NCBI GenBank assembly: GCA_914767715.1
Contig: OU612074.1
Location: forward strand, 23,920,062 to 23,984,061
DNA: 64,000 bases
Origin: Membranipora membranacea
Taxonomy: Eukaryota; Bryozoa; Gymnolaemata; Cheilostomatida; Membraniporidae
Direction: 5' to 3'
Shown here piece after piece: positions 1 to 64,000 of this stretch. Position 1 is the first letter of the stretch; each line of letters opens with the position of its first letter. The translations under genes were made by a program, and so were the position numbers. Under the pieces are notes generated by a model. The model made no database searches, was not told where the DNA came from, and worked only from the letters and a program-made list of their open reading frames with translations.

Positions 1-15
1 TCTCTCACATTGTAG

Positions 16-23354: not shown

Positions 23355-24182
23355 TGTCTGTTGTAGAATGTTCCAGGAGATTATAGACGATAGATCAGAG
23401 TCGGTACAAGGGGAGGAGAATCTAGCGGCCCTTACTGCCGGTGAGCGTGTCCCGTGGGCTAAGGCTAGTAAAAGCCTACTTTAATACTGGAGTTAATAAA
23501 GCTTCTCTCTCTACTATAGAGAAGAGCTCGTTTGTTCTCGTCTTAGATAACGAAGAATTTAACTACTCAGCTGTAAGTTATGCCTATGACTATACCTGAT
23601 ATATGTAATCCTATACATGTAATAGCTAGCCCGTATCTAATCATAGCTTATCATCATACAATGCTGACGATTATTCGGGTTTAGAAAGATTATGACATCG
23701 AATTGCAACATCATATCATGAACCATTGATGATGCGGTTACAGATACTGGTTTAGATTATATAGTTAATGTCTGTTGTAGAATGTTCCAGGAGATTATAG
23801 ACGATAGATCAGAGTCGGTACAAGGGGAGGAGAATCTAGCGGCCCTTACTGCCGGTGAGCGTGTCCCGTGGGCTAAGGCTAGTAAAAGCCTACTTTAATA
23901 CTGGAGTTAATAAAGCTTCTCTCTCTACTATAGAGAAGAGCTCGTTTGTTCTCGTCTTAGATAACGAAGAATTTAACTACTCAGCTGTAAGTTATGCCTA
24001 TGACTATACCTGATATATGTAATCCTATACATGTAATAGCTAGCCCAGTATCTAATCATAGCTTATCATCATACAATGCTGACGATTATTCGGGTTTAGA
24101 AAGATTATGACATCGAATTGCAACATCATATCATGAACCATTGATGATGCGGTTACAGATACTGGTTTAGATTATATAGTGT
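23355..24182 (+). repeat. Tandem 414-bp duplication of a CPT1 exon
   Basis: The exon at 23367-23572, its acceptor (TGTCTGTTGTAG) and about 190 bp of following intron are repeated at 23781-23986 and beyond, almost base for base. In both copies the frame breaks at one extra T (23469 and 23883). Without it the text reads [15 protein letters not shown], as the family expects. The exon enters in phase 2 and leaves in phase 0, so the two copies cannot both be spliced in without losing frame. The shared insertion means it predates the duplication, or the duplication is an assembly artefact. Confidence 0.85.
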
Positions 24183-39170: not shown

Positions 39171-40137
39171 TTCTGTGTGGTTCTATTTTAGCCGGAGTTT
39201 AGCAACGTTTGAGACGCCAATGGATGAAATGTTTTACAAGGACTTTCACTGAATAATCATCCGATTTAGCTCTGATCCTTTCCCCTATGCATATGGTGTT
39301 TGGAACCCTGTTTGCGAATTACTCACATTATTCATGTCATTGTTACTTTATCAGCTGAGTAGGGGGTGTGAATGGTCAGAGCATCAGATGAGTTGTAATT
39401 ACATGATCAAATTCTTCAGGTGTCAAAGGTCAAAATGATGGATAAGAATAATATTTTAAAACTGTTAGTTCACAGAGGTCACAAAAATCTCACGGAGGTC
39501 GAAGCTCACAGAGGTCTGGAGACAAGAACAACAGAAGATGTTAAACTGTGCAATATGTTGGATTCGGCTTGCAAAATGCTGATCTGATGTGCAAACACTT
39601 GTTGACTGCCACGTAGTGTGACTACATACAAATTAAAGTGACAGTGTCTTACATAGCTTTTGACTGAAGGATTTTACTTGTGTTGTACTCAAGATTCTAT
39701 GATTGATCGTTATCTGTATAAATATATGAATTGTATTGTTATTTATTATCTTTATTTGGGTGATTATCAGACAGAGTATGTATTTATAAATATGGGGAGG
39801 TAAAATCTAATAAAGAACTTCTAAAAATGAGCCACAAATCTATAGCTTCATGTTACTAGATCATATTATCAAAGTAAAATAAAACATTCAATGGCGCTTA
39901 AAAGAGATCTAAATACAGAGGAAATAAAACGACACATTGTTGTGTGTAGCTGATACATCTACATCTCGCCTTTTATAATTCAGTATAAATAGTAGATAGA
40001 TGATGTATGATAGATAGACATGTGATGTCATGTCATGTGATGACACAATGTCAGTGAGCTCTCTTATCAAACTGGGAGTAGCCTTCTCTCGTCTCTCTTC
40101 TTGTCTGATTATAGTAGATGAGTTAGACTCTGTATGA

Positions 40138-41800
40138 TCAGTGATTACTTCTTACTAACCACTTATAGTAAGTTACATGTCTCACATTCTGTCCATTTCT
40201 TGTACTGACTGTCACATCTAAATAAACAGCAATGAGGGAATCAACAAGCAGGATCAGGAGTAATTAAATAACTCAAACTGTTCAAGCAGCCTGCTCATAT
40301 GTGAAGAGAAGTATTCAGTATCTCCAGTCATTAATTTCCAATAAAAATATCAGTTTGACAAATTCATCTTCGAACTGAACCTTGAAACAAAAAAGATCAC
40401 ATAATATAATAAGTTTGTTACTCACCTGGTTGTTGGTCGATCCTAGTAGCTGTATTGGGTAGTACTGGATTTCTCAGTGAGTCTGGGTGATTCTCTATTC
40501 TTATAGGTTCTAAGAAGAACTTATACCCTAGAAATGTGCATCTAGTCTGAGGCATAGAGGCTACATAAGCTCTCTCTGGATTATCTCTGTGTCTTCCGGT
40601 ATTCAGCAAGTATTCTGTCCTTTGTACTCCAATCTTAGCCACTAACTGCATTATCTACAATGTATATATATATATATGTCTAAAAGTACACCTCAAACAT
40701 TCACAAAGTTGTGATCATCTGTTGAGTTTTGCACTTAAGATGTAAACTCAAGATTTACTGTGCCAGGAGCTGGAATAATAATTTGGGCGTGAAGATCAGG
40801 AAAGTATCGATGCTAATAGCCTGAGTAGTAGTTGTTGTTTGAATCTGCTACAGAAAGGAGGAGAGGTATACTCTCGAGAGGGCTGGAGCTGGACAATCAA
40901 CCTTTGAATGCTTCCTCAGTGGGCTTTGAACCCACCACTCCAACGGGACTAATCGCGTGGCAGTGAATAGCAAGCAAGCTAACCGATTGCGCAATCTCAA
41001 GATGGGTTGGACTACATACGCTAAAAGTATTCACGTTAAAACGAGGCTGAGTTTACCAAGACGATCCAAGCAATCTTATAAAATGCAGTTGAACTCATGA
41101 GAAAGTTGTGTCACATGTATCAAGGCACAAAACATTAAGTGTGACAACAGTAGTATAGATATTTTATCATTACTTACATAGTCTGCCAGCTCTTTTATAT
41201 CTAGTAGATGGGCACATCTGTAAAACATGGTGACCAGTGTCCGGATGAACGGCGATCCTACAGTAGCTTTTCTCGTAGAAAGAAATGCTACAAGTAGAAT
41301 GGTACAGAGTCTAAACTTGCATGGTGTTCAGCACTTGAATAAGTGACAGATTATACAGTACCGTTAGCAGCCAATTCTATGTAGGATATATCTGGTTGGA
41401 TAGGCAATCTATCTCCCAACCCGATGATACTAGCATTGTGCATGCACCATGTTGTCTTTATCCATTAAGGTGTTTATCAATTGGCAAGTCAAGATGAACC
41501 AATGATTCTACTGCATTTTTTCTTAAAATTCTATCGCTACTATGATAATAGTAGAAAAAATAGTATGAAAATAGTGAATTCTTACACGTGAAAACTCTGT
41601 GTTGTATGTAAGTTCAATTTAAAACTTACACTCAAAGCTCGACTGCATAATGATCAAGTCAGCAGTGGAAATATCTTTATCAGCCAGATCTACTAAGTCA
41701 TCATCAGCACCAGGAGGCTGCTGGGGGTGACCTGCTCCAGGCTGATTCTGAATGGCTGGAGCTTGAGGGGGTGTGGCTGTTAGCAGCATTTCTCTTCTGC
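40138..41800 (-). CDS. Caspase inter-subunit linker, p10 and C-terminal tail
   Basis: Exon 41800-41630 codes a Pro/Gln-rich linker (PPQAPAIQ, HPQQPPG) with an Asp cluster (ADDDLVDLADKD), plausible sites of maturation cleavage. It then starts p10 with ADLIIMQSSFE. Exon 41287-41178 continues SFLSTRKATVGSPFIRTLV; STR stands where caspases have SWR, keeping the S1 Arg. Exon 40654-40426 has ERAYVASMPQTRCTFLGYKF, the normal p10 end, and a 30-residue extension. Exon 40217-40138 adds 25 residues and TGA. Confidence 0.85.
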
Positions 41801-44800
41801 CTGAAATGAGAAGAGTAAATCACTGAACAAGCTGTGTATAAATCATCAGAGGGGAATCTAAGATAAGGTGTGGTGAGAATCACACCATCTCATCCTGGCT
41901 TTTCTTAATTTGGTAGTTCTTTCCTCCTTACCAAGATATATGATTTGGGAAAAATATTATGTTGTAAATGACCTATCCCATTTAGCAAAGCCTCAAGGCC
42001 ATTGCTCACTTACTTCCTGCGCAAGCTTGAATAATGACAATCTTCGGCTTCCCTCTCATAGCAGGGAAGTTCTTAGGGGAGAGTAGATCAATTATCTCCA
42101 TGATCTTGACTTGTTTTCCATCTGATCCACCTACAGATCCTTCATCACCATGACTTGTTATGACTAAGATAAACGATCTGAGATCTTTGTGTACAGATTC
42201 TCCTGTCTGAGCATCAACCAGCTGAGTCTCCTTATGGATCTCTGTGATCATTTCCTGCAGTAAAGAAGTTATACGTGTTGAACGTATTTTGAAAGAAACC
42301 TTAGGAGAGCATAAAAATCAGCCTTATCTTAAGCTCCAATTAGATTTTGTTTTCAAAAAGAAAAACCAACAACATGACATTTGAGATAGTTATAAAAGAT
42401 GGGTCGGTCTTGTAGTAAGCTGCAGGCCTGCTGATCATGTGATCTCTGTTCAATTCTCACTGTTTGGAGCGACTAGTTGAACAAGGTGTTAGTGTTTGAG
42501 AGTATGAGAGTTAAAACTAATTAGGCGTGAGAGGGTAATGACAAAGCTAAATACGGACCAGTCCCTAATATTATACTTCGGTGAAATACCCAATCCTACA
42601 CCCTATGAGGTCGTACATCTCTATAAGGTAGGAGCATATATTGACTGAATTATAGGTCTGGACTTGCTGAGCAACAGCTAATGTTACTTTTAGATTGCAT
42701 TTGCATTTAAAATTCATACATTTGCCGGATAGTTCCTGTGACCTCCTACAGTGATATATCCGAGCCAGTCTAACATCCTCTTCATATTATCATAATCATA
42801 TTCAGAGCCTTGTCTGTGACCGTTGTAAGAGTTTGAGATAATTAGAGCTCTGCCGCGTGTGTCAGACATATGATAATCTCCCTAGCAAAGTAATAAAGTT
42901 TGATCATAAATTATACATCAAACTTCTAGCATATCAGGCTGGGTGTTTCTCACATTTTTACTGTGAAAAATAATTCATATTATCATGATTTCATTGAAAA
43001 GGATATAATACATATATCACTGCATATATGACAAGTTTGACAGACTCCATATCTGGTAGTGTATGAGTCACCCAATCATTTCGGTGTTCCGGAAAAACCT
43101 ATACAAGCCTCTCATGGCAATGCCTGAGCCGCCGTTGCAGAATGTGGTATATACTGTGTGACCAAGGAGCAATTAGATGAGTGTAAGTGAGGTCATATGG
43201 TATCGTAGGGTAACTAGCTCAAATATCTGGTGTTACTCTAAAAAGTTTAGTAAAAGTTACTTGTAATATGTGTTCATTGGCAAGGCTGATCTCTTAGGGG
43301 ACTGAATACGGAGGGATGACTGTATTGTTACACATCTATAACCTTCTCTTCACTCAACTCACTTTGTTTCCTGAGACGAAGAGATCAGGATCTGCTATCT
43401 CTGGATCTATCTGTGCTCTATCAGAGTTCACAATCCTAACAATCTCTTCTAGCTGAGCTGTCTGTAAGACCGGAGGAGGTACACAACCAGACTGGGATGA
43501 TGTAGGAACTGAATCTACAAAATACAAAATAAAAGACTTTGATTGTTTGATTATTTTTCACAACAGAAAATTGTTAGATAGAATGGATAGACTGAAAAGA
43601 AAGATTTTGAATTCTGTGACACCGAATGATCTTATTATTATGGAAAATGAACAAAATGGTCATTATTCATGTTGTCAAGCGAATACTTGCCTCACTTGTT
43701 CTGTGATAAATATTTCTGATTATTAACTAATGGCTCAATTCTTTTTCTCACCTTCTCTTGACTCCACACTCTGCAAGTAACCCTCCAAAACTTTAACTCC
43801 TCTCTCTGTGATACTATCACCTGGATGATAAAAAGTATAAAATAAAATATGCAGTTTGTCTTAGTCATCTTCACTTTCTCTGTGTAGCATTTTAAAATCT
43901 GTTCATGAAAACATAAACTTAAAATATAATGTTGTGATAGTTGAATTTCTTATTATTATGAATGATTACTGCGTTGAAAGGCATTTAAGCAAGCTATGAT
44001 ACTATAAGAGCGTTAACTCACATGGATACCGAAGAGGATGGGGTACAGAGGGGTCTCTGTCACATGATCGTGTCTGACTGCCGTTGAAGGAGATGTTAGA
44101 TCCGGTTTTCCACGATGGATCAACATTTATGGTCGGCTTACTTTGCTTGGTGAGCAGACAGTGAGAGCAGTAGAAGACAGTATCAAAGTGTGCTCCTTTC
44201 CAAACTGTATCTAGTTCTGATGTGAGGTGTTGTAGTGTAGAAATCTGACTATTCCATGATTCCGCAACAAACTCTGGTTTCGTTAATGCTAGTAATGTAA
44301 CGACTCTCTCTGCATGGTTGTGGAAAAAGTATTCCAGTGTGCCGTTGTCAGCTTGAACACTAGCACCATTCATCCCGGCTTCGACATGAACAAATTCTGT
44401 GATATGGAGATCAAGATATATTGCAGTCAGCAGGTGATACACGTGACCTGGTAACGGTAGGCCATTGAAGCGAAGTTCTATCTTCATCGGAATATAGCTC
44501 CCGGTTTCCTGAACAGATATCACTTTCTTACTGAAGTAGGGGATGATATAGTGGGTCTCATTAGCCTCCTTGATCGGACCACATATCAGATTGAAGACTT
44601 TCAGCACTTCTGTTGCGATCTCATGGTCTAACTTAGACTCTTCTTTTATCAGGTAGGACAGGAGTGTGGAGGTCATTACCCCGGTGGTGTGAAACTTCTC
44701 AACCATTGCCTCATACTTTCGCGTGGTGATTACCTGATCATCGCACGTAAACGGAATGAAGTTGACTAAACGTCTGCGCCAGGCCTCCTGGCTAGAATGA

Positions 44801-47800
44801 TCGAAGAGTAACTCAACCAGTTTGGTGAGTAAGTCAATTCTATGAAATACAATGTTTGCCAGTTTTCCTCTGCTTTTGTACCACATCACTTTTCCAATCT
44901 CGTGGAAGTATTGAAGAATAATATTATCCTTGTCTTCCGGGAACCACATCTGTATTTCTTCAAGTGTCAAACAAGGCCGATCTTTCTGCTCTGTGCATCT
45001 ATCCATGAATTCAATCCAGTTCTCAGGTAGCTCTGTGAGAAGTGACAATCCTAAATGGAGCAGTATTGATTTGAGATTAGCGATGACATTTGTTCCAGTT
45101 CCTTTATGAATAACCATCGGCTTGTTTCTTTTGAGCAGAGGTTCTGCTGTATCTGTGTCACAGAAACTTTTCATCAAATGGAATGGACTTGATTTGGGTG
45201 ACATAGCCTTCTCTTCGTTTATTATTCTCTTGCGCAAATTCTCTGTCTCCTTTATCAACTGACTTTGTCTTTCTTTAAACACTTTGGCATCATTGATATC
45301 ATCACGGTGGGTCAGGACTAGGAGGGGAGGGCCAGCTTGAGGACAGGAGAGGTATAGATGGCACAACCAGTCAAAGCATAACTTCTGACAAGCAGCCTCT
45401 GCACCAATCCCACCTACAAGTCTATCAAACTCAGCTATGTCTACGACAAGTAGTGGTACAAACTGATGTCTGGTTGAGAGTGGGTAAGTGAAGTGATAGA
45501 TAACATGACCTCCAAAGTCATGAAATACTAGTGTGGACTTCTCATTGATTTTAGCCTCACTCACTTTGAACACTTTGGTAGCCATATCTAGCTTGCTATC
45601 AGTAGAGCGCTTGGTCAGGTATCTCTTACCATCTTGTAGAGACTTTACAAGGCTAGTCTTCCCAGCCATAGTTTCACCAATGACAGTTACCGGAATGAAT
45701 TGAAATTTCTTGTCACCACATTTGTCAAGATCAGTCCAGTATTTGTGTAGAGCCGTCATCCCTAGTTTACAGACCGCATATGGAGGATATGAAATCGTTG
45801 CAGGCACTTTTAAGGTAGCCAGTTTGGTGAGTTTAATGAGCCCTGCAGGTAATCTGGTCAGAGATTCGTTTTTCCTGACATCTAGCTCCTGTAGATTTGA
45901 TAGGTCCGATATACTATGGGAAAAGAAGGAAAGAATAAGTAACCTTTGAGCATGACTCAGGGGATTTTCTCTGGCCTTTCCCTATATTCTAAACCACATT
46001 ACAATGGAGAGCGTTACAAAACTATCATAAAATCACATACTCAACCTTATCATGTACATAATGACTAGTATGAACACCCTTCCCACGTCAACGATGTGTT
46101 GTTTATTTGAGATGAAAGCTACGGAATCAGATACATTTGTTTCTAGTATCACGCCAACGACCAAGAAGAGAAACTGTTAATTCCTGGACATTAGCAAGGA
46201 TGAAATTTAGAGATGTGAATTCTAATACATAGGTAATTTCTCAACAATCTGCTCAATTCAGAAAACATTTGATGCTGACCAACTATAGCGATCCACAGAT
46301 GAATTGCACATCCAAATTGACAAAAATTTGTAGAGTAGCTCAAGGTTAATTTCCCCATGGGAGCTATTATCACAAGAGCTAATACTTTCATTTAATTTAA
46401 TTAACATTATGTGTGACAAATCAGGTAACTTGTAGTGAGCCATCAAAACAAGCAAATAACAATATTATGAATTGTCCAGTACGAATACTTAAATATCATT
46501 GATCATTATTGTTGGAGTTTTATTATCGCATTTACAACAGGTTACAATTATAATTTAAGTGCTTTACCACACAATAAGTCAAAAAATAATTGTTTTTGTG
46601 AACATTACAGAAAGGTTCTGATATCTTTTCAGGACCCTTCAAGATCCTTTAATCTTCTCCATTTGTCACAGCTTGCAAGTCATTTCTCTGCCATTTATGG
46701 CTTTAAGATACTCATTAATGTTGGCACCAGCAATGGACATCCTCTCCCCCAGAAAGAACAACATTAATACTGGGTTTGGTGTGAGGTGATGTCCTAGACA
46801 AAAGACCATTTTTAAATAACTTCCTTTTAAATTGAGATTATTCTACAGACCCATAGAAGATAATGAATAACCAATGAGCATTGAGCATTTCTATCTTCTC
46901 TAGGTGAAAGCATAAATACTGAACTCTCATTGGCTCACCATCAAATCAGAGCATTCTTTTGATAGTGTACCATCAAGAATATAGGGGTTGTCAGCTATTA
47001 TGGGCACACTCATTCTGTGAATTAAATGTGTTCTCAACAGATCAAAGAAACCACATGCTTACCACCCACCCATACTTATGTCTCCCCGAGGCGAGTTGGA
47101 TCAACCCGGAGAAGAAGTCTCTAGATGCAATGTGACTGGAGATATTCATTGTTGAATTTTTGCTTTTTCAAAATATTCTGAATAAATTATTTGCTGGTGA
47201 GGCTTGCTACCCCTTCACCTAGGTTATTGTTTTGGTAAATTGAACCGTGGGATTAGACCTACAACATGTGCCCTATTAGATGGGCATGGTTTAGCTAAAC
47301 CATGCCCATCTTATAGGGCACATGTTGTAGGTCCAATCCCATGTTTGGACCAGCTCATCGTCTTTAGCTATTAAAGGATTATGCAATGAAATACACTCAT
47401 GCATTGATATTCACAAAGTCAATAGGATGATTACCATGAATCCCAGGCAGTTGATGAAGTTGAAGGATGCTAGCCGTAGATATTTACTTGTGATACCACT
47501 AAAAGTTATGGGCACATCAATTTGGAACAACAGATTATTAGCCATTTTCTTTCAAAGGTGCATTAATGATTTCATCACTTGGCGGCCATTTTTATTTTCA
47601 GAAATGTTCCAGACATCACACAAGCAACCCTGGTTGCTGATTGGTCAATTTCGCCCTTTTGTTCTTCCTGGGGTGAGGGAGTTCTCTGGCTCCAGACTAT
47701 ATTATTGAGCAGTTTTCTTTTCCAATACATCGATTTTCGATGAGAGACACTCATTTCCTGAAACCTCCATCAAATACTTTTCTTTACAATCTTTCAAATG

Positions 47801-50800: not shown

Positions 50801-53800
50801 CTATCGATTCTCCTGGTATTATCTTTCCATTCTTTACCTTTCTCATCATAGATCTCCGAACTAGTATGTAATCGATCACCGAAAAGTATCGACCACTCAT
50901 GCATGTTACCAAATGCTCATCCTTCTTTTCAAAGAAGGTATTGACTAGCACTAGGTCGTACATCTGAGCAAATTCAAGGATCCTCTCTACTAACTCATTC
51001 CTCTGTCCTAAGGTCTGTCCTCCATGCCATCTTTCATACCCTGTTCTATCCATGCAAACATGTCCATTTAGATCTCCTGCAACAACAACTTCCTCCGTAC
51101 CTGGTATCCTACTAATCGCATTCTCCAGTTGGTTCCAAAACTGCTCTTTCTCCTATTGTTCACATCCTTGCTGAGGTGCGTAGGCGCTTACAATGTTATA
51201 GTTCCTCCCTGGTGTTACTAATTTCATTGTCATCATTCTCTCTGATACTCTCTGTACATCTATCATCTTATCCTGCCAGTAGCTGCTGAGACAAATCCCA
51301 ACTCCATTCCTTGGTCGTTTCCCTCCACAATTATACAGCTTGCATCCCTCACCAAGATTTCGGGCCTTTCCTGTCTATCTTGTTTCCTGCAGGCAAAGAA
51401 TATCAATTCTCCTGGCTGTCATCACTGCCGCTATCTCTCTGCTTTTACTAGTTAGCGTCCCTAAATTTAACAAAGCTATCCGCACCTGTCGGTTTTGCCC
51501 CTCTCTCTTATTTGTCACAGCGTCGGGGCAAACATGGTTCCGCTGCATGCCGCATAACACGGGCGGCCTCCTAGCATAGTCTGATTGTCTACTTGCATAA
51601 TCCCTGTTGTGGCGGGGGTTTCCACGGCCGGATGCCCTTCCCGTCGCCAACCCTCTGTGTTTATCAGGGCTTGGGACCGGCTGCCGGTATGCTGGCTTGC
51701 AAACCAACAGGCCACAAGAAACATATATATGATGAAGAAACATAGTTTGCAGAAATTAATTAAATTTTCACAGACAGATGCCAACACCAATGAATCTCAA
51801 TGCATAGTCCTATAGTCTAGTAAAACTTCTAAAATCTCTACCAAATGATAATCAAGGATAATTCTAGGGTTTAGACAGTGAAAGTTTCTTATACTAAATG
51901 AACAACAGAGCTAAAATATCTGACTCTAGTTTCATCCTCATATGTCTTACTGTCTTTTACCCTATCGTACTACCATATACATTTAAAGTTATCTTGGTCA
52001 TTTTATGACTATACATCATCTAAGATATTAGCTCTTTAGACATTGTTAGGAACAACTGCTTTATCCGAAAAATATTTTAGAGTGTTTTCTAACCATCTAA
52101 TATTTTCAAACTGGTTTTCTTAAATATTTATTTCGACCTTCTGTACAGTGTAGTTTATCGTGAATCTGCCCGCATCTGTATTTGGTTGGATGAGCAAGAA
52201 TTGTTTCAGCAAAGAAAGAGGCTTTACCGTAATTTCTATCAAAGTAGTTGCTGTAATATGAAGGGGTGGAATTTTGAGTTAATTTACATGATACATGAAC
52301 ATGCAGCTAGGTCAGCTATCAAATTTCTGTATGGTATGAGGCTGAGTCGGCATCAACTGTGGGAGTTGCGCTTGGCGTTAGGGGTCTGGTAATCGGTGTC
52401 ATAGCTTTGACAAAGCCCACTTTTGTTCTAAAACTGCGTTCATGATATATTTACTGCTTTATCTAATAAGCTTTCTTTCTAAATGTGAATCATTGCTTTC
52501 CATACAATGGTGAAAGCTCTTTCATCCATTTACCCATTCAAAGCTTTTCACCTTTTCACCCATTTAGTTTCACTAGTCACCCAGACAATGGAAAGGATAT
52601 ATCTTTCAGCCAAGAGCTCTAATCAATATTGTAAGTGGTTCTTACTTTTAATATTCCTACAGTTTAATAACTTACTGATTTAGGCAAAACATTTCATCAC
52701 ATTACACTACACTAAACGTCGACATTGTTTTCTGTGGCCTCAGATATTCATTTTCAGTTGCATTTTTCAGACATATTATTATTATTTTCGGCATTCTTCT
52801 TTTAGCTAGATGTGATCCCGACTAGCCAACATTTATAATTGCTCATTTACTATCGGATTTTCTATTCCCAATAATGTGTGAGTTTTGTATCAATCGTAAT
52901 GTTCAATGTGAATTTTTTATGAGCAATTTCATTTATCAGTAGTTGTTATATAGTTAAGAGTTGTGTCATCTTGATCTTTTGGAAGACAACTCCAAAAGTC
53001 AAGCACATGATATATATTTTGTCAGCCATCTTGTTTATTCTATCTTATTGTACAAGAATACAATTATTAACTCTCAGCAATATAAAAGAGACTTGTAAGA
53101 ACATAATAGTAGTGATATAATAAAGGTACATAGTAAATAGTAATTTTGCAGCCATTTGTTGATGGTCATAAGGGGACGTTGTTGCGAACTTTAGATAGAA
53201 CAGTTAAAACATCATATCATTTAAACAAGGAATGGGACTTAAACTGCGTTTTTTAACAAAGTAGATTTTGTTGTATGACAGGGAGGAATTTTGAGTGTTG
53301 ATGTAAATCAACATGATAATCTGAGGGGGGAGGGGGGGAAAGGGGTGGACTTACTCGACTATCATTGAGATACCAATTGTGAAAAAAAAAACATTTTCAC
53401 CTTAATACTACCCGATAAACAACTTAATTAATCAATCAGATGGGTGCAGTTCTTATGAGTAAAATAAAGGATCAATTTAGTTACAGTGTAACAGTGTTTT
53501 GAAAACAACTATACTATACTTACCTCTCAGTTATCTCCGTTAAGTGGTTGCAAAGTTTCCAATGTTAACATATATTAGGGTTTTCAAGAATAAATGATAG
53601 CTGATAATTTTGCTTGTTTAACTATTCTTGGCCCGGTCTCTAAATTTAAATCCTTGTACATTTCCAACCTGCAGGGTATTTTGGACGTGGGTTTAGGTAG
53701 CCTGTCTTGACTAGGTTTGTTGTGGCATATGTTTGCCCCTTCCCACTGCAAAGCTTGTCAAGACAGGCTCGGATATAGGGTGCGATATGCAAAATAATGA

Positions 53801-56800
53801 GTACTAGCAGCTGGACTTAAATGGCTGTCTGTTGATTCTGTTTTATGATGCCCTGTATATCGATTGCGGATTGTTTGAGTTACCGGAGCTTATTAGTTTA
53901 TAATGTTGATTTTGTGTGTTTGATAATTGTGTGGATTTACATGTAGCAGACATTATTATGTAATGATTTTGAATGAACCTAGATTGTGCAGGCACTTAGT
54001 GTGCCTTCTTTGATGAATTGAGAGCAGAGCAGTGTTCGACTTGAGAGAGAGTGGACCTGCACCAGCGTGAATAATGATCTTTTATCCTTTAAGTACGAGC
54101 TAGTGAATATGTAGACAGCAATATATAAATGTTTTTAAGACTTTCACCATGAACCTCCCTGCCTAAGACGGTGCGCCCTGCTCGACAGCACAGAGTTTGA
54201 GGAACATTAAAAGAAACAACCTTTAGTCGTTACATCCCCATATCTATAATTAAAGAGTGAAGACATCGGATCATATCAGGTGTGATTATTATTATTATTT
54301 GGACGCCTAACTCTAAACTCTTGTCTGATTTTATTTTTGACCTGAGCAAGAGACATTTTAATAAGATAGCGAGTGATCGAGAACATCCACTTTTTAGTAG
54401 AGTAATACGAAACAATAACAGAACATCCTCTTGCTTAAATACTACTTTCCGACCCAAGACCTGCAAGACTCAAAAACATGCCAAATCTTTTTCCCAACCT
54501 TAATGTCTTATTTTAACAACATACAACCTTAACCTTTCTTAGTCCATATATTAATTAATGCACACATTCAATTTTATCATTCTCATGATACCGAATGTAC
54601 AAATAAACTGAAACTGAAACTGTAGTGTGTGGTACGTCACAACAGTCATACTTAATATGAGTTATTACACTAATAATCACACAGATATGATCATGATCAA
54701 AATTCAGACCTAGATGGGTCTCGAACCCAGGTCCGAATGCAATGCAGGCAATGCCGCTAACGCTGAGCCTAGTGGCGAGATGGTAGCGTCGTTGCCTGCA
54801 GGTATGTGGACCTAGATTAGAGTCCCAGCCAGGTCTGAATTTTGATCATCATCTTATCTGTGTGATTATTAGTGTAATAACTCATAAAAAGTATGACAGT
54901 CGTGACGTACCACAGAGGAAACATCCGCTTATTCCCTATGCCGATTGAAGGTGATCACCCTGGAAGTTTGAGAGGCCATAACTTCCTCAATATCTGGATT
55001 CTTAAACTTGAATTCGCTCATATGATAGAATAAAATATGGAGAATAAGATGTGATACAAAATAGCAGCCTCAAACTAAGTCTTTAATGGCAAGGCTGCAA
55101 TGTCTGCGCCAGTTTTGCTCTCTGTTTGCAGGCAGATCAGAGCACACCTGGGGGCCAACCAAATCCTACTGCAGTTGGCCTCCAGGCGTGCTCCGACCTG
55201 CCTGCAAACAGAGAGCAAACTGGCGGAGACATTGCGGCCTTGCCATTAAGGCAAAATAATTTTCGCCGCCATGCTTCGGGATGTGGCGCTTGATATGACA
55301 TCCGATTTTAATCAACCTTGAACCAGTTTTTCGTTGACATCGCCGGAACTTTGTCTGATATCAACCTCCAATCTGCTCTAACCGATCTACCATATGACAG
55401 TACACATTGGGCAAGTAAAACACTGGCTGCGTAAAATAGACACATCGAAGTCAACATGTGCATCAGACTTTCCCTCATAAGTCTCAAAGTTTTGTTGTGA
55501 GGATTGGTGCATACCAATGTGGGATCTAAATAAACAAATGGACAGAAATGATAGATGAAAAGAACTGTCACGCTGATCCTACCGCTTTCCTGGACATGTC
55601 AAAGGCTTTTGACAGAATGGAAAAAAATAAAAGTAATAGAGAAGCATTCATCAAGAAAATTTGACAAGAATCTAATCTCCATTGTGCATGCTTCTTGGAT
55701 GGCAGAGAGCGAAGAGTAAGGTTAGGCAACTCCATCTAACCTTGAAAACGAAAAATGGAACACCTCAGGGAACTCTCCTAGGACCAATTTTCTGGTTACT
55801 GTATATCGACTCATGGTCAACCAAGCACGGGACCATTGACAAGTATGGGGATGACCTCACCAAAACACCCAAGGTCAGCAGTGCTGCTAGGGACTATAGA
55901 TGATATTACCAACTGGTGTGATAACCACAATATGCCAGCCATCGCGATCGCACATCATAGATCAGACTAAATTTCTCGTCTGACATAGAGAAATGCGCCA
56001 TACTGGTGGAATCTAGGGTGCCTGGTGACACAATGCCTATACAAAGGATATAATTGAAAATAATTCCCAGTGGTAGTAGGCTTAGATGAAGATGCTGTAG
56101 ATCAGCTATCAATTTCGAGAATTGTGTTTTCAGACAAAGAACACAAACAAGCAATAAAAAGAGTAGTATAAGTACTAAACTGAGAGGAGTAAGTGATCAG
56201 CTCCTTGGGTACTCAGGGTATTAGGTTGAGTTGGGATTGTGGCTCCAATACCCGCAAAAAAGATCACTCCAAAGGTGTCCTATAAAGATTTTCAGGCAAA
56301 AACAGAACGAAAATAGTAATTTTGCAGCCATTTGTTGGTGGTCATAAGGGGACGTTGTAGCGGACTTTAGATAGAACAGTTGAAACATCATATCATTTAA
56401 AGAAGAAATGGGACTTAAACTGCGTTTTTTAACAAAGTAGATTTTGTTGTATGACAGGGAGGAATTTTGAGTGTTGATGTAAATCAACATGATAATCTGA
56501 TGGGGGGGGGGGGGGTAGGACTTAAGCTGTAGCTCCACGTAACGATGTAATCACAGACCGATGGCATGTCTAGACATGCTCGGCCGATCTCACACTGCTA
56601 CACAGGCCTATGAGTTAGTATACGATGGTCTAGTGAGTCATAGCGGCTCATAAATCAGGTGCCTTGATTGACCAATGAACTCCCTCAGTTCAATCGATTG
56701 ACCAATGATATTTAATGGGCGTGTTAACAAATGACCGGATATAGATTGTCACTTTGAATCTTCACCAAATAAAATTTCAGTCTTCTATAAAATTGATTTT

Positions 56801-59800
56801 CCTATGCTATACTATGGATGTCATGTCAGGACAGCTTCCATTTCCAAGTGATACAGCTATTACCTTCCATATTTTCACTTCAGCACCACTCCTATCTTTG
56901 TAGTTATGGTCTTTTTATCATAAATAGGAGGATGTGATTTTACTACAGATATTATCAACTCCTCCATTTTTGAAAGTTGTCACGATTTGATAGATGACGT
57001 GTTTAACCGCGTAATTATTGAAGCAAGCAATCAACAACCGATCAGCATAGAGGATCGTCCAGATCACTCGGGCAAAAGACCAACAAGTTCGATGTCCACT
57101 TAACACGAGTAATCACTCGTGCAGATCCACCGATTAACCACCCGTGACCCCAAATCGATGTAAAAATCGTGTCATGTAGCCATGGCTTTACTCGACTATC
57201 ATTGACATACCAATTGTGAAAGAAAGAAAAACAATTTCACCTTAATACTACCCGATAAACAACTTAATTAATCAATCAGATGGGTGCAGTTCTTTTGAGT
57301 AAAATAAAGGATTAATTTAGTTACAATAACAGTGTTTTGAAAACAACTATACTGTACTTACCTCTCAGGTATCTCCGTTAGGTCACAATTGCTCAGCTCT
57401 AGCTTTTTGAGACACTTCAGATCCCCTATCCGGCTGGGTAAGGTATGAAGGTTCTTATTTCCACATAAGTACAGCTCCTCTAGGTTTGTAAGTGATCCAA
57501 TACTGTAATGAAAGTTATTAGATCTGTCAGTATGTACCCAGTTTTAAAGGAGCAGCAAAGCAGAAGATAATACAACAGTGCACCAATCTAATAGCAAAGT
57601 ACATATGCAGGTACTGATCTTACTTTTGCAGGATAGGTGGTATTTAGTGACAATAAAACACATAATAAATAAATAAAGAAATAACAAATATGATGGAAAA
57701 AAGCTAATGTATAATAACGTCAACTTGCAGTTCTTGAGACTGCAGCTATTATAAAGATCTATGTGATCTCAAACTGAGTTAAGAATTGGGTATTATATGA
57801 TTAGATCATAACTTTGCATTGTCATATACTTCGCATGGGCTATTCTTTCTTTGGGGAATCACAGAACCATCGTTCTGGCCAAAAAAACAAGAGTGATTTT
57901 TGGTGTTGATCAAAATTCAATCTACATAACATTTCTATCTCATTTAAATTAATATCTAGTGACCTTGAGGTCAGGTTATATATGGTTTAGTGGTTGTCTG
58001 CTCTGCAACTGTTATCAGGTCCAATCACAGCTGTATTGAGGATGACCCATAGGAAAAGAGCCAAGGTTTGGTGCTTTCTTATCCGCTTGATGACTCTATA
58101 TCACCTATCATATTAAATTAATTAGATACTGTGTAACACCCGACTGAGGCTGTTATGGTTCAGGTCATGTGATACAGGAGGCAGCAGCGGAAAATTTTGA
58201 GAGTGAACATCTTGATACGACTATGAATCAGTTTAAACATGATATTCAGCTCTGTAGTGAATAATATTCTGTTCCAAAGAGCTGATTTCCTTACTGGCTA
58301 TTCATTTAACATTTATAAATGGGTTGCCAGGGTTGTCTGTAACTTTAACAAGCACTATTTTATACCCGTCCTTTTAGCAGAATAATAATAAAAAAAAACT
58401 CAGCTAACATACCAGTAACCAATTTTATGTTGCCAATCCAACAAAAGAAATATTCACTATGGTTCCATGGATCGATTATGTAAGGATTTCGGTAGTAATC
58501 GCCCCATGGAAATGGCATTAAAGTCAAATTCCGATTGTGACGAATGACTTTATGGACGTGAATATCCAAACCGTGTTTATTCGACCTTATTACTAATTGG
58601 CGGCGTGGCTGAATGGTTAGCGGCGCTTGCACACAATGCCTTCAAAGTGAATTAACGCGGGAGGCCGGGTTCAAGTCTCGGCCGCGGCAGATTCTTTTCA
58701 TGTTTTTCCCATCATGGGAATGGTTAGAATCCACTGGATTCTAACCATTCGAAATTGGAGTGAACCACAAAATTGACCCACGGAACCATAGTGATTCTGT
58801 CGATCAATACCACTCATGCATTTACCATCAGCCAAAAATCTTTATTTAGTAACTTCATTTATGCCAAACCAGTACAGTCTGTCCGCCCAGCTATTTTGAA
58901 AATTGGCACACCTCCGCGAGATAGCTTCAATCTATGTATGTATGTATGTATATGATGCTCAAATAATGGTGTGGGAGAGAAGTTATTCATCAGTTGAAAT
59001 GAAGGTAAAGAACTGACTTAGAACGCCAACCACCCTCTACCTTTTTTAAATTAGATTTAAGTCCCTGGCCAATTTACGAGATACGAAAATGATTTGCTTC
59101 CATAGACTTTACCTTTAGGTCTATTTTTGATACACAGCTTTCTAAGTATCCCTCGGAATATCGTCTCGGAAAAGATTGTATACACAAAAGGAGCCTAAGT
59201 TTCTTTAAATTATTTTGGTTGATTGATTATAGCTTGTAATTATACAACAAAATTTACCAAAAGCCATGAGGATCATTACACATTGGTAAGCTTAATTTTG
59301 TAGAGTGTTTTGTCAATAACCTTCAAATTGTGTAGTGACAAGATCACTTTTGGGGAAATGTCTAGTCTCCACAATTTAGGTTCTGTTCATTGGTCTGTTA
59401 TATGTTTGGTTACGCTATAAAATCCCACAGCGTTCATTGATCAGGACAGAACACTACTGATTTAAACTCGTGAGAAAGAAGATAGAAAGACATGGAGATA
59501 TCTAAAACTTGGGTGACAAATATTCTGAGTCTCTACACTATTTTAAGTCCACTGACCAACTTAAGAATTAAAACTAAAGGCCTTCATTATTCCTGACTTC
59601 TCTTCAAACTTACCCTTACTCACTCTCCCCTATGTAACGAGGCAATTTTGTGTCATATTATAAACATTTCTGAATCTGAATTATTGTCATTACTTTCTAA
59701 TGAATCAAGATTTCCCTTTTTACATTTCAAGAATTTAACAGTAGGGTCTAATGATCCGAAAACTTGTTAAACGAAAACAAAAGATAGCCATTCAATTATA

Positions 59801-62800
59801 TGCACCTAGAAGTTGCAAGGCATTTAGTTATCTTTGGAGGAGCCATGTCCAAATCCCTTATCTCAGCTCTAAAAAAAGCTGTGTACTTTGGATTTCTTAT
59901 ATCTGTATGATGTGATGATGCAGTTTAATAAAATTTTTTGTAGCCAACCAGTAATTGAATCAAACACCTGAGTACTAGCAGCTGGACTTAAATGGCTCTC
60001 TGTTGATTCTGTTTTATGATGCCCTGTATATTGATTGCAGATTGTTTGAGTTACCGGAGCTTATTAGTTTATATTGTTGATTTTGTGTGTTTGATAATTG
60101 TGTGGATTTACATGTAGCAGACATTATTATGTAATGATTTTGAATTAACCTTAATTGTGCAGGCACTTAGTGTGCCTTCTTTGATGAATTGAGAGCAGAG
60201 CAGTGTTCGACTTGAGAGAGAGTGGACCTGCACCAGCGTGAATAAAGATCTTTTATCCTTTAAGTACGAGCTAGTGAATATGTAGACAGCATTATATAAA
60301 TGTTTTTAAGACTTTCACCATGAACCTCCCTGCCTAAGACGGTGTGCCCTGCTCGACAGCACAGAGGTTGAGGAACATTAAAAGAAACAACCTTTAGTCG
60401 TTACATCCCCATATCTATAATTAAAGAGTGAAGACATCGGATCATATCAGGTGTGATTATTATTATTATTTGGACGCCTAACTCTAAACTCTTATCTGAT
60501 TTTATTTTTGACCTGAGCAAGACACATTTTAATAAGATAGCGAGTGATCGAGAACATCCCCTTTTTAGTAGAGTAATACGAAACAATAACAGAACATCCT
60601 CTTGCTTAAATACTACTTTCCAACCCTAGACCTGCAAGACTCAAAAACATGCCAAATCTTTTTCCCAACCTTGATGTCTTATTTTAACAACATACAACCT
60701 TAACCTTTCTTAGTCCATATATTAATTAATGTACACATTCAATTTATCATTCTCATGATACCGAATGTACAAATAAACTGAAACTGAAACTGTAGTGTGT
60801 GGTACGTCACAACAGTCATACTTAATATGAGTTATTACACTAATAATCACACAGATAAGATGATGATCAAAAATCAGACCTAGATGGGTCTCGAACCCAG
60901 GTCCAAATGCAATGCAGGCAATGCCGCTGACGCTGAGCCTAGTGGCGCAATGGTAGCATCGTTGCCTGCAGGTATGTGGACCCAGATTCGAGTCCCAGCC
61001 AGGTCTAAATTTTGATCATCATCTTATCTGTGTGATTATTAGTGTAATAACTCTTAAAAAGTATGACAGTTGTGACGTACCACAGGGGAAACATCCGCTT
61101 ATTCCCTATGCCGATTGAAGGTGATCACCCTGGAAGTTTGAGAGGCCATAACTTCCTCAATATCTGGATTCTTAAACTTGAATTCACTCATATGATAGAA
61201 TAAAATATGGAGAATAAGATGTGATACAAAATAGCAGCCTCAAATTAAGTCTTTAATGGCAAGGCTGCAATGTCTGCGCCAGTTTTGCTCTCTGTTTGCA
61301 GGCAGATCAGAGCACACCTGGGGGACAACCAAATCCTACTGCAGTTGGCCTCCAGGCGTGCTCCGACCTGCCTGCAAACAGAGAGCAAACTGGCAGAGAC
61401 ATTGCGGCCTTGCCATTAAGGCAAAATAATTTTCGCCGCCCATGCTTCGGGATGTGGCGCGTGATATGACATCCGATTTTAATCAACCTTGAACCAGTTT
61501 TTTGTTGACATCGCCGGAACTTTGTCTGATACCAACCTCCAATCTGCTCTAACCGATCTACCATATGACAGTACACATTGCGCAAGTAAAACGCTGGCTG
61601 CGTAATATAGACACATCAAAGTCAACATGTGCATCAGACTTTCCCTCATAAGTCTCAAAGTATTGTTGTGAGGATTGGTGCATACCAATGTGGGATCTAA
61701 ATAAACAAATGGACAGAAATGGTAGATGAAAAGAACTGTCACGCTGATCCTACTTTCTGGTTACTGTATATCGACTCACGGTCAACCAAGCACGGGACCA
61801 TTGACAAGTATGGGGATGACCTCACCAAAACACCCGAGGTCAGCAGTGCTGCTAGGGACTATAGATGATATTACCAACTGGTGTGATAACCACAATATGC
61901 CAGCCATCGCGATCGCACATCATAGATCAGACTAAATTTCTGATCTGACATAGAGAAATGCGCCATACTGGTGGAATCTAGGGTGCCTGGTGAAACAATG
62001 CCTATACAAAGGATATAATTGAAAATAATTCCCAGTGGAAGTAGGCTTAGATGAAGATGCGGTAGATCAGCTATCAATTTCGAGAATTGTGTTTTCAGAC
62101 AAAGAACACAAACAAGCAATAAAAAGAGTAGTATAAGTACTAAACTGAGAGGAGTAAGTGATCAGCTCCTTGGGTACTCAGGGTATTAGGTTGAGTTGGG
62201 ATTGTGGCTCCAATACCCGCAAAAAAGATCACTCCAAAGGTGTCCTATGAAGATTTTCAGGCAAAAACAGAACGATAATAGTAATTTTGCAGCCATTTGT
62301 TGGTGGTCATAAGGGGACGTTGTAGCGGACTTTAGATAGAACAGTTGAAACATCATATCATTTAAAGAAGAAATGGGACTTAAACTGCGTTTTTTAACAA
62401 AGTAGATTTTGTTGTATGACAGGGAGGAATTTTGAGTGTTGATGTAAATCAACATGATAATCTGATGGGGGGGGGGTAGGACTTAAGCTGTAGCTCCACG
62501 TAACGATGTAATCACAGACCGATGGCATGTCTAGACATGCTCGGCCGATCTCACACTGCTACACAGGCCTATGAGTTAGTATACAATGGTCTAGTGAGTC
62601 ATAGCGGCTCATAAATCAGGTGCCTTGATTGACCAATGAACTCCCTCAGTTCAATCGATTGACCAATGATATTTAATGGGCGTGTTAACAAATGACCGGA
62701 TATAGATGTCATATTAAATCCGGGTCTTTGTCACTTTGAATCTTCACCAAATAAAATTTCAGTCTTCTATAAAATTGATTTTCCTATGCTATACTATGGA

Positions 62801-63495
62801 TGTCATGTCAGGACAGCTTCCATTTCCAAGTGATACAGCTATTACCTTCCATATTTTCACTTCAGCACCACTCCTATCTTTGTAGTTATGGTCTTTTTAT
62901 CATAAATAGGAGGATGTGATTTTACTACAGATATTATCAACTCCTCCATTTTTGATAGCCTGTCACGATTTGATAGATGACGTGTTTAACCGCGTAATTA
63001 TTGAAGCAAGCAATCAACAACCGATCAGCATAGAGGATCGTCCAGATCACTCGGGCAAAAGACCAACAAGTTCGATGTCCACTTAACACGAGTAATCACT
63101 CGTGCAGATCCACCGATTAACCACCCGTGACCCCAAATCGATGTAAAAATCGTGTCATGTAGCCATGGCTTTACTCGACTATCATTGACATACCAATTGT
63201 GAAAGAAAGAAAAACAATTTCACCTTAATACTACCCGATAAACAACTTAATTAATCAATCAGATGGGTGCAGTTCTTTTGAGTAAAATAAAGGATTAATT
63301 TAGTTACAATAACAGTGTTTTGAAAACAACTATACTGTACTTACCTCTCAGGTATCTCCGTTAGGTCACAATTGCTCAGCTCTAGCTTTTTGAGACACTT
63401 CAGATCCCCTATCCGGCTGGGTAAGGTATGAAGGTTCTTATTTCCAAATAAGTACAGCTCCTCTAGGTTTGTAAGTGATCCAATACTGTAATGAA
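40138..63495 (-). CDS. LRR-ROC-COR-caspase fusion gene, 5' end outside window
   Basis: Exons in reading order: 63495-63355, 57502-57362, 45913-44022, 43820-43752, 43514-43363, 42881-42720, 42254-42014, 41800-41630, 41287-41178, 40654-40426, 40217-40138 (stop TGA). Every junction has GT and AG and matching phase, giving 1,128 residues in the window. Domain order: LRR doublets; a ROC GTPase with GETMAGKTSL, DFGGH and THRD; a COR domain; a linker; then a full caspase with SHGDEG and QACAG. Roco proteins are GTP-regulated dimers; caspases are Asp-specific cysteine proteases activated by proximity. Read as one chain, this suggests a receptor that senses through LRRs and fires its own protease. The strongest support for one gene is that the ROC-COR exon has no convincing stop of its own: its frame runs only through a GTGAGT donor, and the next exon fits it. 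Two adjacent genes remain possible until a transcript is seen. Confidence 0.8.
40915..40997 (-). repeat. tRNA-like sequence, probably SINE
   Basis: On the minus strand it has an A-box-like TTGCGCAATCGGTTAGCTTG and a B-box-like GGTGGGTTCAAAGCCCACTG. The spacing is near that of a class II tRNA, but the acceptor ends do not pair well. It sits in the caspase gene intron between the p10 exons. Confidence 0.45.
42014..42254 (-). CDS. Caspase p20 catalytic exon
   Basis: This exon enters in phase 0 after CTGCAG and leaves in phase 1 (GGA A|GTAAGT). It codes SFILVITSHGDEGSVGG, with the catalytic His at 42152-42150, and GKPKIVIIQACAGS, with the catalytic Cys codon at 42023-42021. Both positions of the Cys-His dyad are intact. 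The usual QACRG or QACQG is QACAG here. Confidence 0.92.
42720..43820 (-). CDS. Linker exons and start of caspase p20
   Basis: Exon 43820-43752 (phase 1 in and out) and exon 43514-43363 code a Ser/Pro-containing linker with two short amphipathic stretches (ERGVKVLEGYLQSV; LEEIVRIV). I cannot call a CARD or death domain in it. Exon 42881-42720 begins the protease fold with DTRGRALIISNSYNG, then HRQGSEYDYDNMKRML and DWLGY. The Arg of HRQGS matches the conserved S1-pocket Arg of caspase p20. Confidence 0.85.
44022..45913 (-). CDS. Exon coding last LRR plus ROC and COR domains
   Basis: This single 1,892-bp exon enters in the LRR phase (AG|T) with ISDLSNLQELDVRKNESL and LTRLPAGLIKL. It then has the Roco linker SYPPYAVCKLGMTAL. 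The P-loop GETMAGKTS lies at 45678-45652, the switch-II-like DFGGH follows, and THRD stands where NKxD is usual. The COR part follows (LTELPENWIEFMDRC, then LTLEEIQMWF, LQYFHEIGKVMWY, VFHRIDLLTKLVELL). It ends at CCA T|GTGAGT. ROC binds GTP and COR dimerises. No kinase domain follows, unlike LRRK proteins. Confidence 0.9.
45914..48240 (-). other. Intron 5' to the ROC-COR exon
   Basis: No exon is seen. The only clear structure is the 94-bp palindrome at 47248-47341. The left end near 48,241 borders the 3' end of a LINE. Confidence 0.6.
47248..47341. repeat. 94-bp near-perfect palindrome without loop
   Basis: Two 47-bp arms meet at an AGCT centre (47293-47296) and differ at only two positions. 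The left arm starts TGGGATTAGACC and the right arm ends GGTCCAATCCCA. No convincing target duplication flanks it. It could be a MITE-like foldback, or the template of a long hairpin RNA because it lies in an intron. Confidence 0.9.
48241..49876 (-). mobile_element. CR1/L2/Jockey-like LINE, RT interrupted
   Basis: The minus-strand frame 49856-48255 codes the end of an apurinic-like endonuclease (VLGGDFNTLD, then LGKSDHASVII). It continues into the N-terminal RT region (DYRPISLLWHIGKLIE, NQFAYRKGVGCTDAL, LILYDFSKAFDNL, motif A). It then breaks into what looks like 3' UTR, ending in a TTTG repeat at 48,241. RT motifs B to E are missing, so it is a deletion derivative. It abuts a different LINE at 49,876. 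Confidence 0.8.
49878..51745 (-). mobile_element. RTE-like LINE, truncated, two nonsense codons
   Basis: Reading down from about 51,743 the endonuclease begins with ALLNLGTLTSKSREIA and DILCLQETR. It continues through GVGICLSSYW, IVSAYAPQQG, VVVAGDLNGHV and SVIDYILVRR, then a Lys/Glu-rich linker, then the RT start KKGKAAGPDEFPIEIVKRLG and TPLYKQKGDP. The frame meets stops just after LQETR and within the GCEQ-EKEQFW region. RT ends at 49,878 where the neighbouring LINE starts, so most of the polymerase is gone. Plus-strand frames here are shadows. Confidence 0.8.
51746..53149 (-). other. Intron sequence with no recognised feature
   Basis: This AT-rich DNA lies between the RTE-like element and the decayed duplication copy. 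A 68-codon plus-strand open frame at 52186-52392 has no recognisable domain. Confidence 0.5.
53150..53545 (-). repeat. Decayed partial copy of the 6-kb unit with LRR exon remnant
   Basis: Bases 53150-53365 match 56325-56515, and 53340-53545 match about 57,185-57,380, with the sequence between deleted. It ends in the last ~20 bp of an LRR exon plus its donor (minus strand GGAGATAACTGAGAG|GTAAG). The rest of that exon is lost. It shows an older round of the same duplication. Confidence 0.75.
54250..54622 (+). mobile_element. LINE 3' end (unit 1)
   Basis: A short plus-strand frame ends in HFNKIASDREHPLFSRVI, like the last residues of CR1/Jockey-type RT proteins. A 3' UTR follows, ending in tandem TGAAAC units (ACTGAAACTGAAACTG). 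The copy in unit 2 is at 60430-60792. Confidence 0.6.
54628..54914. mobile_element. 287-bp foldback element with inverted tRNA-like halves (unit 1)
   Basis: Ends TGTGGTACGTCAC and GTGACGTACCACA are exact inverted repeats, and the complementarity runs on for over 100 bp per arm. The inner part of each arm contains a tRNA-like B box: GGTCTCGAACCCAGG inverted on the left, AGAGTCCCAGCC on the right. AGTGGCGAGATGGTAGCG in the centre resembles an A box. It inserted next to the LINE tail. Confidence 0.75.
55088..55244. repeat. Inverted pair of the dispersed repeat core (unit 1)
   Basis: Two arms of about 70 bp (from GGCAAGGCTGCAATGTCTGC to GACATTGCGGCCTTGCC) face each other across about 15 bp. Each arm is the core found singly at 2,664, 3,402 and 38,985. 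Confidence 0.85.
55558..55915 (+). mobile_element. Degraded reverse-transcriptase fragment (unit 1)
   Basis: In broken plus-strand frames it shows motif A-like TAFLDMSKAFDR, motif B-like NGTPQGTLLGPIFWLLYI and motif C-like KYGDDLT. Stops and frame changes separate them. In unit 2 the part from motif A to motif B is deleted (205 bp) and only the motif C end remains at 61,745-61,880. Confidence 0.7.
57362..57502 (-). CDS. LRR exon (unit 1)
   Basis: This 141-bp exon lies between CATTACAG and GTAAGTAC and codes IGSLTNLEELYL, NKNLHTLPSRIGDL, KCLKKLELSNCDL, ending TEIPER. Phase and length are the same as in the plus-strand LRR exons at the left edge. It splices in frame to the ROC-COR exon at 45913. 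Confidence 0.88.
57503..59971 (-). other. Intron between the two duplicated LRR exons
   Basis: No exon is seen. It holds a tRNA-like repeat at 58599-58690, a short perfect hairpin at 58718-58750 (GAATGGTTAGAATCCA and its complement around one base) and a GTAT microsatellite near 58,935. Confidence 0.55.
58599..58690 (+). tRNA. tRNA-like sequence, class II size; SINE more likely
   Basis: It has an A-box-like TGGCTGAATGGTTAGCGGCG and a T-arm GCCGGGTTCAAGTCTCGGC that pairs well. The length of about 90 nt would require a long variable arm. I could not place a confident anticodon loop, and the acceptor ends pair only partly. Flanking sequence includes a hairpin at 58718, so it may be the head of a tRNA-derived SINE. 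Confidence 0.35.
60430..60792 (+). mobile_element. LINE 3' end (unit 2)
   Basis: This is the duplicate of the element at 54250-54622, with a few substitutions and the same ACTGAAACTG tail. It arose by segmental duplication, not by a new insertion. Confidence 0.6.
60798..61084. mobile_element. 287-bp foldback element (unit 2)
   Basis: This is the duplicate of the element at 54628-54914. Here the right-arm B box reads GATTCGAGTCCCAGCC, closer to a tRNA consensus than the unit 1 copy. Confidence 0.75.
61258..61414. repeat. Inverted pair of the dispersed repeat core (unit 2)
   Basis: This is the duplicate of the foldback at 55088-55244, offset by 6,170 bp, with single-base differences. Confidence 0.85.
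63355..63495 (-). CDS. LRR exon (unit 2)
   Basis: This is a near-identical copy of 57502-57362. The visible coding change is at one position (CATAAG against AATAAG in the plus-strand text near 63,448, altering Cys to Phe in LYLCGN). It precedes the other LRR exon in the transcript. Confidence 0.88.
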
Positions 63496-64000
63496 AGTTA
63501 TTAGATCTGTCAGTATGTACCCAGTTTTAAAGGAGCAGCAAAGCAGAAGATAATACAACAGTGCACCAATCTAATAGCAAAGTACATATGCAGGTACTGA
63601 TCTTACTTTTGCAGGATAGGTGGTATTTAGTGACAATAAAACACATAATAAATAAATAAAGAAATAACAAATATGATGGAAAAAAGCTAATGTATAATAA
63701 CGTCAACTTGCAGTTCTTGAGACTGCAGCTATTATAAAGATCTATGTGATCTCAAACTGAGTTAAGAATTGGGTAATATATGATTAGATCATAACTTTGC
63801 ATTGTCATATACTTCGCATGGGCTATTCTTTCTTTGGGGAATCACAGAACCATCGTTCTGGCCAAAAAAACAAGAGTGATTTTTGGTGTTGATCAAAATT
63901 CAATCTACATAACATTTCTATCTCATTTAAATTAATATCTAGTGACCTTGAGGTCAGGTTATATATGGTTTAGTGGTTGTCTGCTCTGCAACTGTTATCA

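Follow-up and report, generated by a model that had tools for sequence, protein, structure and literature searches.

The locus studied here raises the question whether a ROC-COR exon and the caspase exons that follow it on the same strand are parts of one animal gene. The window, i.e., the whole stretch of DNA that was analyzed, comprises 64 kb; the 5′ end of the putative LRR-Roc-COR-caspase gene falls outside of it, and all statements on domains cover the in-window part. According to the original prediction, the minus-strand ROC-COR exon 45913-44022 meets a GTGAGT donor and the downstream exons continue in phase through a full caspase, p20 and p10, to a stop. Between 46 kb and 40 kb of the minus strand, we read the sequence and placed the exon borders both manually and with a script, and this part of the prediction was borne out. 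The ROC-COR exon is an open frame with the 3′ border CCAT/GTGAGT, and nine exons lead from 45913 to the stop at 40138 over eight GT..AG junctions, all of them in frame. The two junctions that had been named, 44022/43820 and 42720/42254, were right at the sequence level. Most introns have a GTRAGT donor, and the 1034-aa product contains, in this order, the end of an LRR region, Roc, the likely COR, and the caspase. The features of this part of the window are as follows:

44022..45913, minus strand: exon 1, with the last LRR, the Roc GTPase, the likely COR and a Cys cluster (frame, Pfam, alignment)
43752..43820, minus strand: exon 2, predicted to carry the Roco protein on with DSITERGVKVLEGYLQSVESRE (acceptor ranked first of 2449 in the comparison with the bryozoan protein P0019)
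43363..43514, minus strand: exon 3, linker to the caspase with no in-frame Met (conserved in P0026, coding codon usage)
42720..42881, minus strand: exon 4, start of the caspase p20 with a presumed S1-pocket Arg, codon 42815-42813 (frame, alignment)
42014..42254, minus strand: exon 5, p20 core with the presumed catalytic His (SHG, 42152-42150) and Cys (QACAG, 42023-42021) (frame, alignment)
41630..41800, minus strand: exon 6, inter-subunit linker with the Asp-rich stretch GADDDLVDLADKD from 41711, and start of p10 (frame, alignment)
41178..41287, minus strand: exon 7, p10 with a presumed S1-pocket Arg (STR, 41273-41271) (frame, alignment)
40426..40654, minus strand: exon 8, end of p10 and C-terminal extension (frame, alignment with P0026-P0029)
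40138..40217, minus strand: exon 9, C-terminus YKWLVRSNH and stop (frame, alignment with P0026-P0029)
39742..39756, minus strand: first AATAAA signals 3′ of ROC-COR, at 39756 and 39747 (motif scan)

Codon usage alone leaves exons 2 and 9 unproven: scores as high occur in 109 of 884 open intron windows for exon 2 and in 106 of 699 for exon 9.

The caspase and Roco halves

In the 1034-aa model, the Pfam profile Peptidase_C14 (PF00656) scored 98 bits (cut-off 21.4) at residues 713-943, covering positions 1-213 of the 233 positions of the profile. Neither a CARD, DED or death domain nor a NACHT or NB-ARC domain was found by Pfam in the 1034 residues up to E = 1. With the spliced linker plus caspase (403 aa) as query for the caspase side, five proteins were obtained at E ≤ 0.01. 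P0026 (JGI, metagenome; 405 aa, contig of 1731 nt) was 65% identical over 93% of the query, the match extending to the C-terminal YKWLVR, and P0027 (metagenome; 369 aa, contig of 1325 nt) was 43% identical over 79% of it. Both proteins run uninterrupted across the window introns between exons 4 and 9. Judged from their protein sequences, they are probably derived from transcripts, and they confirm the predicted caspase exons 4-9. The assumption that the caspase exons are chance frames was rejected in view of the identity to P0026, the absence of a break at the intron sites, and the codon usage.

The best matches of the caspase domain among solved structures were CED-3 (60 bits) and caspase-9 (56 bits), and the caspase-1 structure was also found by sequence search with this domain. 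The alignment with CED-3 includes the H and C of the catalytic site as well as the Q and the two R of the pocket; that with caspase-9 includes H, C, Q and the second R and stops short of the first R. We take the respective residues of SHG, QACAG, HRQGS and STR to be the His and Cys of the active site and the R, Q and R that make up an Asp-specific S1 pocket, and all of them are invariant between the window protein and P0026-P0029. The linker between p20 and p10 holds the Asp-rich stretch, and further residues are present behind p10. By these sequence features, the domain is a predicted animal-type caspase with complete p20 and p10 and with predicted Asp specificity. Alternatively, it might serve as a non-catalytic or regulatory module and not as a protease, as could be suspected from the changes of QACRG to QACAG and of SWR to STR. 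We regard this as rather improbable, because the H, the C, the Gln and both pocket Arg are kept in all five sequences and because the fourth position of QACxG is variable, with R, Q or G, although not Ala, among the residues given in PMC2575513.

On the Roco side, Pfam recognized Roc with 28.7 bits in the 1034-aa model and with 29.6 bits in exon 1 alone (cut-off 27). The GTP motifs of Roc are intact, with the P-loop GETMAGKT at 45678, DFGG at 45519 and THRD at 45312, which we take to be G1, G3 and G4. When the ROC-COR exon was used as query, 25 proteins were found at E ≤ 1e-10 among 8000 candidates scored. Eighteen of these were 41-56% identical, without family name, and located on contigs of 1.6 to 7.8 kb; the sole family-named match was P0019, an MFHAS1 homologue of the bryozoan Watersipora, with 31% identity over 99% of the exon. 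A set of 18 sequences, termed A2, was formed from the window and 17 relatives, leaving out P0005 and P0019-P0025. At E ≤ 0.01, Roc was matched by 15 of the A2 members and COR-A by 14, including the window (best E 6.6e-7). COR-A follows Roc in the expected place of the window protein, with 20.5 bits in the 1034-aa model and 22.3 bits (E 1.3e-4) for the ROC-COR exon alone, both under the Pfam cut-off of 35.3. Compared with solved structures, the A2 profile matched the CtRoco-type structure 3dpu with 52.5 bits, almost the whole score coming from Roc, with 4.9 bits for the COR part. Thus, the product is, by its predicted Roc and LRR, a Roco protein, and a COR domain likely follows Roc, beneath the Pfam cut-off in the window protein. 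Of the domains expected in the spliced protein by the original prediction, Peptidase_C14 and Roc exceeded their cut-offs and COR-A did not.

The end of the ROC-COR exon (44169-44022) shows a Cys pattern, CSHC at 44169, C at 44064 and a final PC, which is kept in many of the ROC-COR relatives and looks like a small putative zinc site. The codon of its last Cys is split across 44022/43820 by the intron before exon 2.

The predicted junction between Roc-COR and caspase

For the end of exon 1, the window sequence was aligned with 24 of the 25 relatives (P0025 was left out). The ROC-COR homology of the relatives stops at one residue, the Cys of '..PC', which is reached in 20 of the 24. Four sequences lack the '..PC' end, one stops at the Cys, and the annotated P0019 continues; in the remaining 18, the next residue is E (10), K (6), R (1) or M (1). 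An E or K after the Cys suggests TGT GAG or TGT AAG, as mostly results from an unspliced donor T/GTRAG, this being deduced from the relatives' protein sequences only. The ROC-COR family therefore seems to splice at this Cys, and as the relatives share the apparent splice donor, the window Roco is not expected to end at the stop of the ORF. A Roco protein ending at the stop behind 44022 (RYPCELTLL) was rejected on account of the relatives reaching the same Cys and of the continuation of P0019.

Past the shared Cys, P0019 continues with CGNLTLEDKQVVEKYLEDNES. We compared this stretch with the translations behind all AG of both window strands that had the required phase and at least 15 open codons, in total 2449 sites. 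Acceptor 43820, with which exon 2 starts, ranked first with a score of 38 (runner-up 22), and this score was matched by 17 of 100000 shuffles of exon 2; the match rests on one bryozoan protein and comprises 21 residues, 8 of which are identical including the Cys. The acceptor test ties the predicted exon 2 to the Roco gene independently of the caspase. Exon 3 was coding as judged by its codon usage (LLR 13.4, reached by 0 of 64 open intron windows of equal length) and was conserved in P0026 (0 of 20000 shuffles as good). Its frame contains no Met from the in-frame stop at 43560 through to exon 4. Being coding and conserved without a Met, exon 3 must be entered from an upstream exon in phase 1, and exon 2 fits. 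Three ATG exons that could likewise feed phase 1 were found in 44021-43515, with the donors GTGAAG, GTCAAG and GTCACA, which are off the GTRAGT consensus.

These data bear on the alternative of two genes on the same strand, with a Roco gene ending in or soon after exon 2, which when unspliced reads to a stop after REGEKKN, and a separate downstream caspase gene with its own promoter and first exon. This arrangement would agree with the 29 residues of P0026 ahead of the exon 3 match, which are unlike exon 2 (local score 17, a value that 18% of the shuffles attain), and with P0027, which begins at the Met of exon 4, but it leaves the phase 1 entry into exon 3 to an ATG exon with an off-consensus donor. 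There is also no canonical poly(A) signal between the halves, as neither AATAAA nor ATTAAA occurs on the minus strand between 45223 and 39756. This absence fits weakly with a single transcription unit, since the signals are likewise missing from 33 of 2000 shuffles and from 95 of 1196 stretches of the window. A further point in favor of two genes is that no relative with both halves was found, in searches of little power: a length- and word-limited protein search yielded no fused relatives of the right length at E ≤ 0.001 among 3828 candidates, and alignments of ROC-COR and caspase against bacterial and archaeal genomes and viral contigs, in which one would not expect an animal gene, gave pattern matches, no relatives and none with both halves. 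Taken together, we consider two separate genes improbable.

The deviating start of P0026 allows several explanations. This protein may differ in its 5′ exon or retain an intron; its contig, with a first residue other than Met, probably starts inside a longer frame, and it could alternatively be a caspase with another first exon. Compatible with a fused gene is the scenario in which alternative promoters or splicing yield, besides the fusion, a Roco that lacks the caspase and a caspase that lacks the Roco part. We see this as somewhat unlikely but worth consideration: the 5′ part of P0026 may be an alternative or a retained one, exon 4 has a Met where the caspase domain begins, and brown-algal ROCO genes are described as alternatively spliced in their LRR exons (PMC11378527), whereas P0026 derives from another gene or species. 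As the preferred reading, homology, phase and coding signal make it very probable that Roc-COR and a full caspase are encoded by a single gene.

Upstream LRR exons and other features of the window

Upstream of the ROC-COR exon, the minus strand contains the following LRR exons:

63345..63485, minus strand: LRR exon, upstream copy, phase 2 to phase 2, about two repeats (sequence and HMM)
57362..57502, minus strand: LRR exon, second near-identical copy (sequence and HMM)
53523..53545, minus strand: third LRR exon copy, a 23-nt remnant, probably dead (blastn)

The two complete exons, 63485-63345 and 57502-57362, have 141 bp each, are 99.3% identical over a stretch of 150 bp, start and end in phase 2, and encode SIGSLTNLEEL..CDLTEIPER. 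The ROC-COR exon itself starts in phase 2 inside an LRR module (SISDLSNLQEL), and the joined modules scored 82.4 bits with LRR_14. Hence the predicted phase agreement of the LRR exons was found, while their joining to the ROC-COR exon, across a gap of 11.4 kb with retroelement sequence inside, is what we infer: strand, phase and module type suggest that the two exons belong to the Roco-caspase gene.

The LRR exons are part of a tandem duplication at 53135-63983 with a spacing of about 6 kb and one LRR exon per copy. Two pieces of 2.2 and 1.8 kb could be aligned between its copies, with 97-98% identity, and about 4 kb around the exon 57362..57502 align with the upstream copy. The near identity of the LRR copies could reflect a real duplication or alleles misassembled in tandem. 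Together with the retroelement sequence in the gap that separates the LRR exons from ROC-COR and with the truncation of the third LRR exon, the duplication might also point to a decaying gene whose LRR array is broken by repeats and from which a fragment or nothing is made. This is very improbable in our view, as the nine exons are open over 1034 codons with conserved motifs and the ROC-COR exon has the 18 relatives of 41-56% identity described above.

On the plus strand, the same module type recurs in four LRR exons within 1-7002 (about 16-156, 773-892, 6263-6403 and 6858-7001). They point into a minisatellite, and one of the four copies has a deletion; we read them as a putative second LRR or Roco gene that is convergent with the first. 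A second ROC-COR or caspase was not found in the window by tblastn at E ≤ 1 with a draft query whose last two exons were out of frame. The minisatellite (7300-13350, about 6 kb) is strongly strand-skewed, with a GC skew to -0.77, and by repetition is open in several frames, up to 1254 codons. A tandem repeat array on the plus strand at 18050-20520 consists of many copies of one frame of about 50 aa (SGAQYVSYYYLVLSVSYT). Carnitine acyltransferase exons lie on the plus strand between 23308 and 30550, PF00755 scoring 82.7 bits at 30269-30550 and 17.5 bits, under the cut-off of 22.3, at 23308-23481, a frame with a near copy at 23722-23895. Two reverse-transcriptase ORFs on the minus strand, 48258-49877 and 15658-16485, matched RVT_1 above cut-off and are probably of LINE type; the former sits in the gap between the LRR and ROC-COR exons and has endonuclease matches under the cut-off. 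Scans of the window for tRNAs and Rfam families gave no matches.

Proposed mechanism and comparison with known systems

Initiator caspases are activated by induced proximity. We think it likely that this animal gene encodes a single-chain LRR-Roc-COR-caspase that works by a switch of the following kind. On binding of a trigger by the LRRs, the Roc-COR unit would shift its nucleotide state and the way in which it dimerizes, whereupon two caspase domains would meet. The paired caspases might undergo self-cleavage within the Asp-rich p20/p10 linker, perhaps also at Asp sites before p20 (QIDPEIADPD), and release an active Asp-specific protease that would kill or alarm the cell. With LRR exons that are duplicated and matched in phase, the sensing part could change fast. 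The 'on' state may be the GTP or the GDP state; the bacterial CtRoco, whose active state is described as GTP-bound and monomeric with a large movement at the LRR-Roc hinge, is driven to the monomer by GTP (PMC11052575). More tentatively, the gene may represent a family of one-chain death receptors, specific to its lineage, in a marine invertebrate. Recognition would rest on exchangeable LRR modules, a Roc-COR dimer would do the switching that is otherwise done by a STAND ATPase, and the caspase would be built in, which would amount to an adaptor-free, GTP-driven apoptosome in one polypeptide.

To our knowledge, animal cell-death platforms are ATP-driven oligomers that recruit caspases via adaptor domains. 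The apoptosome and the inflammasome share with the window product the logic of an NTP switch, repeats and a caspase, but here there would be one chain with a Roc GTPase and no NACHT or NB-ARC. For the one-chain sensor, switch and protease of the original prediction, homology, phase and coding signal thus speak for the Roc-COR/caspase join, and the likeness to apoptosome or inflammasome is one of analogy. The initiator caspases CED-3 and caspase-9 match the caspase domain, whereas none of the CARD, DED or death prodomains was found by Pfam in the window protein.

C-terminal peptidase domains of Rocos include IPR009003, which we take to be a trypsin-like peptidase. It is this domain, and not a caspase, that is described for group 3 of the brown-algal ROCO proteins, which belong to algae and not to animals (PMC11378527). 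The same source describes single LRR motifs on separate, shuffled exons before ROC-COR, in contrast to the LRR exon modules of the window gene with about two repeats each. MFHAS1-type Rocos (group 1) have the same LRR-Roc-COR order, and P0019 is similar past the shared Cys; MFHAS1 is described as LRR plus RocCOR only (PMC6337361), to which the window gene would add a caspase. Amphioxus has LRR-caspase and TNFR-caspase hybrids, in which a sensor is fused directly to a caspase and which were interpreted as a direct link between recognition and apoptosis (PMC2575513). The term GTPase is absent from the main text of that paper, and its passages on the hybrids describe no switch domain.

Rocos with CARD, death or TIR domains and the amphioxus LRR-caspase hybrids are in print (PMC8195603, PMC7159879, PMC2575513, PMC4104024, PMC9334734, PMC6337361, PMC5094078, PMC11378527). 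In agreement with the prediction that no such chimera had been described, no Roco-caspase appeared among the matches listed for Roco and caspase terms in the open-licence literature, nor among those listed on Rocos or caspases of sponges and invertebrates and on Roco mechanism, as far as these texts go, although a 2024 survey speaks of up to forty combinations of Roco domains in animals (PMC11378527). The best reading is that Roco-caspase is a novel combination, Roco-CARD, Roco-TIR and LRR-caspase genes being already published. If it is true, one molecule would unite an LRR sensor, a GTP switch and a death protease and would do work that is normally shared among a sensor, adaptors and a caspase as distinct molecules. 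LRR-GTPase-COR-TIR genes are described from sea anemones (PMC5094078), and Aplysia has two TLRs with Roc and COR (PMC9334734). Whereas these and other immune Rocos of placozoans, cnidarians and molluscs carry adaptor or TIR domains, the window gene would carry the protease itself, and the Roco domain shuffling of these animals would be extended to the executioner.
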